Of a stretch of 64,000 nt of DNA, positions 50,085-51,811 are shown one piece after another (the stretch's first letter is position 1; the number at the start of each line of letters is the position of its first letter). The notes beneath the pieces were generated by a model. The model did not search any database, was not told the DNA's origin, and saw only the letters and a list, made by a program, of their open reading frames with translations. Source of the DNA: Deltaproteobacteria bacterium HGW-Deltaproteobacteria-2 (GTDB lineage Bacteria; Desulfobacterota; Syntrophia; Syntrophales; Smithellaceae); NCBI GenBank assembly GCA_002840505.1, contig PHBC01000003.1, forward strand, positions 261,789 through 325,788, written 5' to 3'. The translations under genes were made by a program, and so were the position numbers.

Positions 50085-50888
50085 TCAGCGAATAATGGCG
50101 AAAACCCTGGCCGGAGCTCCCGTTCCGCCTTTTATCGACATGGGTATCACATACAGAGTTGCTCCCTTGACGGGAAGTTTGTCCAGGTTGGCAATATTTT
50201 CCAACGCGAGTTTATCGGCGCCGCAAATAACGCGGTGGACCCAAAATTCAGTTGACTTGCCATAATCAATGCTTGGTGTATCAAGGGCAATCCCTTTAAT
50301 ATTTCGTTGTTTCGTAAGAAATTCCGCCGATTCCCGGGAAAACGCCGGGAAACTCAATTCAGGAAGCGCCGGCAGACCTTTCTTATCGGTTCCTAAAACA
50401 CTCTTGCGGTCGGGATAAAATTGTGTGCCGATTCCTGTGTACATAATTACCCATGCTCCCGCCGGAATCCGGCCGTACTTTTTCTCCCATTTCTTAATAT
50501 CCTCGACGGAGAGCAGGTAATTTCTATCGCTGGCACACTGCTGCCGCACGTCGATTTTTATTGCCGGTCCGATCCATTCCTCAAGAGGAACCTGATCAAT
50601 GGTGCGCCCATTTTTTGCAAAGTGAAGCGGCACGTCGGCATGCGTACCGCCGTGTTCTGAAGCGGCATAAAAGTTGGCCGCATACCAGTAACCTTTCTCG
50701 GTCATTCCATGAAATTCCGGCGTCAATTTAAATGGTGTTGCGTTTGGCCAGTAGATCGTATTTTCGTCATAAGCATATGTCATGTCCAGAATATGTCCAA
50801 TATGTCCGGCAGCATATCCGGTCCAGGACGTCATTGTCATCATTACAGCTATAAACACTGCCGCAATAAATATTTTTTTCATTTTCAT
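50085..50888 (-). CDS. Secreted cyclase-family (kynurenine-formamidase-like) metal hydrolase
   Basis: A signal peptide (KKIFIAAVFIAVMMTMTSWT) precedes the fold. YAASEHGGTHADVPLHF holds the HGGTHxDxPxHF metal motif, and IKGIALDTPSIDYG follows. AAAGGAG lies 10 bases before the ATG. Family members hydrolyse amides or lactones with zinc or manganese. Its start lies 29 bases after the stop of the MerB-like selenoprotein gene, so the two are likely co-transcribed. Confidence 0.85.
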   Translation of the reverse strand: MKMKKIFIAAVFIAVMMTMTSWTGYAAGHIGHILDMTYAYDENTIYWPNATPFKLTPEFHGMTEKGYWYAANFYAASEHGGTHADVPLHFAKNGRTIDQVPLEEWIGPAIKIDVRQQCASDRNYLLSVEDIKKWEKKYGRIPAGAWVIMYTGIGTQFYPDRKSVLGTDKKGLPALPELSFPAFSRESAEFLTKQRNIKGIALDTPSIDYGKSTEFWVHRVICGADKLALENIANLDKLPVKGATLYVIPMSIKGGTGAPARVFAIIR

Positions 50889-50917: not shown

Positions 50918-51664
50918 TTACTCAATTAGATAAAGAGCGCTGAAAAAAATACGTATCAGTCCCATACATTTTTCCATGGGGATATAAATCCCCATCACCG
51001 CTTTGTTATTTCTTCGATATTCCCTGGCATCATCTTCCGACCGGAAGAATACGCACACCGGTCAAAACCTGTCCCGTATGCCATAATAATATGAACCAAA
51101 TATCACCAACGGGAAAAAAAGAAGCGGGGCAGAACCTTCATCAAGCACCTGATAATTTAATGCGCTATCAATCTCCATGCGAATGGGACTTGATGAATTC
51201 GCGCACTTTGTTTCCAGTATCATGCTGCATGGCTGGCCGGTTAATTGCCCTTTCACGAAGGGCTCCCCGAGGGAGTCGCCTGCTCAAGGTGCCCAAACCT
51301 GTTCACCGGTGTTATAAGTAATTTTGAATTTCGTTTCTTCCACAGTAACCGGATAAGTCCAGGTTACTTCACCCTGTACGTTTCTCACAATCCAGTTCTG
51401 TCTCTTGCCAATCTTATCCAGAATTTCTCGCACCCTATCAAGCGGCATATTCAAACTCTCGGCGATATGTTCAGGAGAAATGGGCTTACGCAGACGAAGA
51501 AGCTCCAGGAAAAGAAAACTTCTGACCCTGTAGTGATCTTTGGAAAACATCCTTGGATAAACAGTCCGCATCACCTTTCCGGCAATACTAATTCCAGCTT
51601 CGCACAACCAGAATGGAGCAGGAGCAACCTTTTTTCCAACACCCAGCCATACTTTGTTTGCCAT
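50918..51664 (-). CDS. Alkylmercury-lyase (MerB)-like selenoprotein with two UGA-encoded selenocysteines
   Basis: Read through two in-frame UGA codons (51284-51286 and 51062-51064), the minus strand gives a 248-residue protein ending in TAA at 50918. Residues 40-125 are the MerB winged-helix and wing (LRKPISPEHIAESLNMPLDRV, then TYPVTVEETKF). The first UGA is codon 127 in VWAP-U-AGDSL, matching the MerB AWCALDTL with Cys96 and Asp99. The second is codon 201 in RDRF-U-PVCVFFRSEDDA, matching RQSFCCHVHFF with Cys159. The MerB triad thus appears as Sec-Asp-Sec. Each UGA is followed by a SECIS-like hairpin. The start at 51664 has AGAGG 5 bases upstream; 51679 is an alternative. Whether it cleaves organomercury is inference. 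Confidence 0.8.
51033..51048 (-). promoter_or_regulatory. SECIS-like hairpin after the second UGA
   Basis: UCUUCC and GGAAGA form a perfect six-pair stem with a GGUC loop that starts 20 bases after the UGA. GGUC is the loop core of the E. coli fdhF SECIS. A U below the stem can bulge, allowing further pairing. Confidence 0.75.
51247..51263 (-). promoter_or_regulatory. SECIS-like hairpin after the first UGA
   Basis: On the minus strand GCCCUU and AAGGGC form a six-pair stem with loop CGUGA. The loop starts 27 bases after the UGA and has G in its second position. This fits the bacterial rule (loop 16-37 bases after UGA with G in the first two loop bases). Confidence 0.65.
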
Positions 51665-51811
51665 CACAACCTCTTTCATTAATTGGAGATGTCTTTAATT
51701 ATTTGTCATTCCAATCCACTTTGTCACTGCAAGCAATCTCTTTATTAATTCTATTTCATTGTCCCTCTAAGATGGCTATTTCGGCGAACGTGCGATTAAT
51801 TATTTACACAC

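Follow-up and report, generated by a model that had tools for sequence, protein, structure and literature searches.

A gene in the window, the whole 64,000-nucleotide stretch of DNA analyzed here, is likely to encode a MerB-superfamily protein that is a true double selenoprotein and acts as an organometal (probably organomercurial) lyase with a Sec/Asp/Sec site. That selenocysteine (Sec) occupies both positions is close to certain. The fold, the alignment of the residues, the conservation of the UGA codons, the hairpins, purifying selection past each UGA and the selenocysteine machinery were all computed. The gene and its start and Sec codons are as follows.

50918..51664, minus strand: MerB-superfamily coding sequence, 248 aa with two Sec; the frame is open with TGA read as Sec
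51679, minus strand: ATG, longer start option giving 253 aa; the whole frame is 50918-51679
51670..51676, minus strand: putative ribosome-binding site AAAGAGG, presumed from the letters 5' of the second ATG
51284..51286, minus strand: UGA 1, Sec codon at the MerB Cys96 column, read from the letters
51062..51064, minus strand: UGA 2, Sec codon at the MerB Cys159 column, read from the letters

As described in the original prediction, an apparent 131-aa open reading frame ends at a TGA (51284-51679, minus strand), and the same frame runs on through a second TGA to a TAA at 50918-50920. Counting from the first ATG gives 253 aa, with U132, D135, C159 and U206; counting from the second ATG (51662-51664, minus strand) gives 248 residues, with U127, D130 and U201. 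The second ATG is likely the start, judging from the AAAGAGG upstream of it, the alignment of the homologue starts at this point and a stop codon just before it in three homologues. These three (L053, L063 and L070) carry the stop just ahead of the true start, and their rows were retained in the 81-sequence set described below.

Membership of the protein in the MerB superfamily was assessed by sequence profiles and by structure. The Pfam MerB family PF03243 matched the read-through protein with 48.6 bits (E 9.7e-13; cut-off, 27), which places it in the family. A search of the PDB with the single sequence did not find MerB, and a profile was required; when a profile built from 53 homologues was searched against all PDB sequences, the five best matches were MerB2 (5c17, E 8.5e-8) and four MerB entries (E 1.5e-5 to 7.1e-4). 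Against individual MerB structures, the profile gave E values of 1.5e-5 (3f2g) and 3.2e-5 (1s6l), and hhalign against three plasmid MerB proteins gave a probability of 99. An AlphaFold model computed from the homologue alignment had a mean pLDDT of 91 and a pTM of 0.87. All 11 Foldseek matches of this model with E <= 0.001 were MerB or MerB2 (3f0o, E 1e-11), and VIA-align returned Z scores of 22.6 to Hg-bound MerB2 (5c17) and 21.0 to Hg-bound MerB, with the best unrelated row at 5.4. The match to the MerB fold spans model residues 23-253 and includes the winged-helix part. The MerB fold that had been proposed from the letters is therefore borne out by the Pfam match, by the profile and hhalign alignments and by the structural searches. 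At the level of named subfamilies, no NCBIfam model reached its cut-off for the window protein; the MerB equivalog NF009710 gave 46.9 bits against a cut-off of 193, and the SaoL model NF040728 gave 38.7 bits against 140. Over the 53 family members, only the MerB and SaoL models matched widely, in a comparison for which cut-offs were given for the first member only.

Both UGA codons had been predicted to lie on the catalytic cysteines of MerB, with the catalytic aspartate kept, and the alignments agree. In the profile alignments to 1s6l, 3f2g and 5c17 and in the hhalign alignments, U132, D135, C159 and U206 fall on what we take to be MerB residues Cys96, Asp99, Cys117 and Cys159, respectively. 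The window protein thus resembles MerB (PF03243; 3f2f, 1s6l and 5c17) in its fold, its winged-helix part, the order of its catalytic columns and its Asp99. It differs from MerB in that both catalytic cysteines are Sec, in an identity of only about 20%, in some 20 N-terminal residues that the MerB match does not cover and in that no mer operon was seen.

To follow the two codons across homologues, 80 loci from a scan of named GTDB genomes were combined with the window into a set of 81 sequences. The record titles of the 80 loci name Deltaproteobacteria, Desulfobacterales, Syntrophus, Smithella, Chloroflexota, Acidobacteriota, Actinomycetota, Nitrospirae, Spirochaetes and others; the closest relative, from Smithella sp. 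SCADC, is 68% identical. A query of genome contigs with the single protein returned zero relatives, and a query with the alignment succeeded. In this set, whose counts are biased because one of the two peptide patterns used in the scan overlies hairpin 2, site 1 is UGA in 80/81 sequences and site 2 is UGA in 81/81. The remaining site 1 is a Cys codon (TGT) in L102, a locus that covers the query only partly. The Asp99 column is Asp and the Cys117 column is Cys in all 81. Judged from these alignments, the recurrence of both TGAs at the same columns is far beyond chance. Both columns hold UGA in place of random residues, in accordance with the earlier argument that two stops on the catalytic cysteines are not the product of random decay.

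Two further surveys gave the same picture. Among the genomes of 99 relatives, the family is present in nine; each of the eight full-length copies has exactly two TGAs, and the ninth (G009) is split by a frameshift and retains both. PF03243 missed members in five of these nine genomes (G001, G003, G009, G053 and G072), so counts based on it are lower bounds. When 395 genomes of the phylum were searched with a profile, a survey free of the peptide-pattern bias, 25 genomes matched, and exactly two TGAs were found in all 14 matches above 280 bits. The other 12 rows scored 51.5 bits or less and are weak relatives and fragments; one short, C-terminal-like fragment without a TGA (L154, in G420) looks like a broken copy. 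On these alignments the double-UGA gene is not an isolated oddity, and its pattern is kept across many bacterial groups.

Each UGA is followed, within the coding sequence and at a constant distance, by a SECIS-like hairpin, as judged by a structural filter, by the freezing of codons and by covariation.

51247..51263, minus strand: SECIS-like hairpin 1, GCCCUU CGUGA AAGGGC, loop 26 nt past UGA 1
51027..51054, minus strand: SECIS-like hairpin 2, apical stem UCUUCC GGUC GGAAGA, loop 19 nt past UGA 2

Across the 81 sequences, hairpin 1 has the form GCCCUU-loop-AAGGGC, starting 20 nt after UGA 1 with the loop CGUGC in 75/81, and hairpin 2 has the form UCUUC(Y)-GGUC-(R)GAAGA with the loop GGUC in 81/81. 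A bSECIS-type filter, modeled on the constraints given in the legend to Fig. 2 of PMC13188914, was passed by 73/80 site-1 and 76/81 site-2 sequences, compared with 4173/14605 (28.6%) of the other codon positions in the same genes; because so many other positions pass, the filter alone is weak evidence. The freezing of synonymous codons is, on this alignment, the stronger evidence. In hairpin 1, P140 is CCC in 78/78, F141 is TTC in 81/81 and V142 is GTG in 79/81, and in hairpin 2, F211 is TTC in 81/81, F212 is TTC in 79/80 and S214 is only TCA (71 sequences) or TCG (10 sequences). At most other conserved residues, synonymous codons vary freely.

Covariation was measured against shuffled alignments. 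The pair closing loop 2 is U-A in 71, C-G in 6 and U-G in 4 sequences and is paired in all 81 (300 shuffles: mean, 75.7; highest, 78), and pair 21-37 of hairpin 1 is standard in 77/81 (shuffles: mean, 63.6; highest, 67), these shuffles ignoring kinship. In the six rows where Arg (CGG) replaces Trp (TGG), TCG always stands in place of TCA, so that both sides of the stem have changed. The outer pairs are not conserved, pair 19-39 of hairpin 1 being standard in 10/81 and pair 12-31 of hairpin 2 in 6/81. L102, the sole row with Cys at site 1, is also the sole row in which hairpin 1 loses pairs 23-35 and 24-34; its hairpin 2 is intact, and this is a single case from a metagenome assembly. In the window itself, the 44 nt past UGA 1, taken together, are no more stably folded than shuffled sequences (z, 0.08), which speaks against a hairpin there, whereas the 16-nt hairpin alone gave a z score of -2.0; hairpin 2 folds at -12.5 kcal/mol (z, -1.95). 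The Rfam SECIS model matched nothing in the window or the genome, which says little because the model also matched 0/14 control genomes.

The ratio of mean pN to mean pS, from 216 homologue pairs that are 60-97% identical, was 0.33 both upstream of UGA 1 and between the two UGAs, and it was 0.26 downstream of UGA 2. Purifying selection is thus, by this measure, similar along the whole gene, with selection at the protein level continuing past each UGA. These values bear on whether the gene is instead a decaying pseudogene, or carries sequencing errors that give two in-frame stops. Standard ORF calling does shorten the gene to 131 aa, and broken relatives do exist, namely, the frameshifted copy in G009 and the truncated copies of a second group in G031 and G035. 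Against this, the UGAs recur at both columns, pN/pS is unchanged past each of them, synonymous sites are frozen in the hairpins only, and sequencing error is excluded because many independent assemblies carry the UGAs. With the 14/14 two-TGA matches in the phylum, we regard decay or error as barely credible and reject it for practical purposes.

The machinery needed to read UGA as selenocysteine is complete in the host genome, a result that favors the original prediction: selA (628 bits), selB (377 bits) and selD (383 bits, with one TGA within) were all found over their cut-offs, together with tRNA-Sec (selC). Two tRNA-Sec candidates with the anticodon TCA scored 73.8 and 54.9 bits (cut-off, 47), and ARAGORN concurs on both; a third Rfam match over the cut-off is a tRNA-Ser according to ARAGORN. 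The lower-scoring candidate (L012, G000:C1:453455-453545) is a second, divergent tRNA-Sec beside the usual one (L011). Among the relatives, selA is present in 91/99 genomes and does not discriminate between them; it was not found in G001, a genome of 94% completeness that carries a family member.

Since the frame is open whichever residue UGA encodes, it could also be asked whether UGA specifies another amino acid genome-wide, through a changed code or a suppressor tRNA. However, 19 of the 50 window ORFs of at least 200 aa end at TGA, which is thus an ordinary stop in this host, and the genome has the full Sec machinery. The two UGAs, moreover, sit on the catalytic Cys columns with SECIS-like hairpins after them. 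Reassignment is therefore rejected, and we consider it extremely improbable.

PF03243 searches in the relatives revealed a second group of MerB-like proteins, in which both catalytic columns hold Sec and the Asp99 column holds Glu. It comprises 10 full copies (L110-L118 and L122), two more (L153 and L155) and two broken ones (L121 and L126). In the 10 copies, GGUC is present at the hairpin place after both UGAs, and the best predicted fold shows the loop after UGA 2 in 8/10. At several loci of this group, the gene adjoins an iron-sulfur, cysteine-rich oxidoreductase-like gene, as judged by eye from translations. Trees separate the window family from the second group, and an approximately unbiased (AU) test does not reject a single clade (P = 0.21); on these trees, the double-Sec state may have arisen once or twice. 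A Cys/Cys MerB relative (L119, L120 and L128) clusters with the second double-Sec group; it has retained FF-SEE, the stretch encoded by hairpin 2 in the Sec forms, perhaps as a trace of a Sec ancestor.

Among the closest known relatives with selenocysteine is SaoL (NF040728), a MerB-like organometallic lyase that, like the window protein, belongs to the MerB superfamily and has known Sec forms. Table 1 of PMC13188914 gives SaoL the motif CU, with one Sec. Two loci scored over the SaoL cut-off of 140 (L147, 173.9 bits; L152, 147.2 bits), and in both the Cys96 column holds Cys and the Cys159 column holds Sec, as is also the case in the MerB relatives L150 and L151; L148 and L120 are Cys/Cys. The CU motif of SaoL places a Cys directly before its only Sec, which falls on the Cys159 column; in the window protein, both columns are occupied by Sec. 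From the columns sampled, Sec at the Cys159 column is thus common to SaoL, and what the window family adds is the Sec at the Cys96 column.

The double selenoprotein MbdU (NF045648), named as metal binding in Table 1 of PMC13188914, was also considered and rejected, since its 468-position model has no match in the host genome and matched 0/53 family members at E <= 1. Elsewhere, the MbdU model matched in part (G023:C72:51209-51775) with 118 bits against a cut-off of 600, at a distance of about 2.4 kb from the MerB-like gene of that genome.

The claim that no organomercurial lyase homologue with such a Sec pair had been described holds in part. The pair itself, and with it a MerB-superfamily member with a Sec/Asp/Sec site, appears to be new within the literature searched; only the pair is new, because a Sec-containing MerB relative, SaoL, is already listed with its one Sec in Table 1 of PMC13188914. 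In that table (2026; 119 families), SaoL is the sole MerB-type entry and most families have a single Sec; two papers that this review cites, Haft and Gwadz 2023 and Haft and Tolstoy 2025, may mention the family. Among the predicted selenoproteins tabulated in PMC7435645 is an "organic mercuric lyase MerB2", given by name alone; this entry may be the window family or SaoL. MerB and mercury terms are absent from PMC5029168 and PMC12013277.

The surroundings of the gene were compared across the same 81 loci.

50085..50888, minus strand: putative cyclase (PF04199, E 2.8e-37), 29 nt downstream of the MerB-like gene and possibly co-transcribed with it

The cyclase has a signal-like N terminus. A homologue of the cyclase lies directly after the MerB-like gene in Smithella sp. 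SCADC (L027) and 1.5 kb off in L045; by clustering, it was found in no other of the 81 loci and is not a conserved partner of the family. With an upstream view of at least 600 nt in 72 of the 80 fetched loci, a regulator lies just upstream in some, of the MarR type in 7/81 and of the MerR type in 5/81; a MerR-type regulator is also upstream in L007 and L008. Apart from such regulators, the neighborhood is not conserved among the 81 loci and gives no pointer to function.

Mercury genes were searched for beyond the locus. No mer operon was found, and merA was below its cut-off in the host genome (best, 279 bits; cut-off, 454). The host genome does carry the mercury methylation gene hgcA (G000:C5:53054-54040; 464.8 bits; cut-off, 275). 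Among the 99 relatives, hgcA is over its cut-off in 6 of the 9 genomes with the window family and in 43 of the 90 without it (Fisher P = 0.32), an association that is not significant. For the second group alone, the count is 8/10 (P = 0.05), the broken copies in G031 and G035 being excluded from the ten. When both groups are pooled, it is 14/19 versus 35/80 (P = 0.02), a result that is not relied on because it is uncorrected for kinship or for pooling.

These observations have to be weighed in deciding what the Sec pair does. A possible but less probable reading is a double selenoprotein of MerB fold that cleaves no metal-carbon bond and instead captures a soft metal or metalloid or uses the Sec pair, together with the conserved Cys at the Cys117 column, for redox reactions. 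That Cys, invariant in the set, could serve as a third soft ligand; mer genes do not adjoin the gene and merA is not over its cut-off; and the MarR-type or MerR-type regulators upstream of some copies have no tie to mercury. The families treated in PMC13188914 also include many redox or metal-binding selenoproteins. What speaks against a pure binder is the Asp99-column residue, for which it would have no need and which is nonetheless Asp in 81/81. MerB needs Asp99 for protonation. MerB-like working of the window protein is most likely because the Sec pair and the Asp occupy the MerB catalytic positions.

For a lyase, we infer that the cell inserts selenocysteine, that the protein acts as a lyase with mercury as its metal and that it serves detoxification, as follows. 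SelA, SelB, SelD and tRNA-Sec of the host would decode both UGAs as selenocysteine, with a separate hairpin, a short way downstream within the coding sequence, directing each of them. The folded protein would then hold two Sec at the MerB Cys96 and Cys159 places, and the conserved Asp (Asp99) would lie between the two Sec in the site. The two selenolates would bind a soft-metal organic compound, most likely organomercury, and the Asp would aid protonation of the carbon as the metal-carbon bond is cut. A diselenide-type site, as proposed in the original prediction, may have a stronger affinity for the metal than a dithiol. In PMC11639659, selones that mimic organomercurial lyases are described as reacting faster than their sulfur analogues, which fits a benefit from selenium. 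More specifically, and tentatively, the protein could be a selenium-based organomercurial lyase that serves as a self-protecting methylmercury demethylase independent of any mer operon, its two catalytic thiols having been upgraded to selenols, in Sec-using, largely anaerobic bacteria, some of which, like the host of the window, have hgcA.

In this gene, both members of the catalytic pair known from a metal enzyme would be Sec, with the two residues 74 positions apart and served by two SECIS-like elements, in many phyla. Its truncation to 131 aa by ORF calling may explain how it escaped notice. To our knowledge, how anaerobes without merB demethylate methylmercury is still open. If the protein does cleave organomercury, the family would provide a gene through which the breakdown of methylmercury can be tested in anaerobes, one of them a carrier of hgcA, as well as a natural comparison of Sec and Cys at a mercury site. 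Genes for methylmercury breakdown would then be present in organisms now annotated as having no merB.
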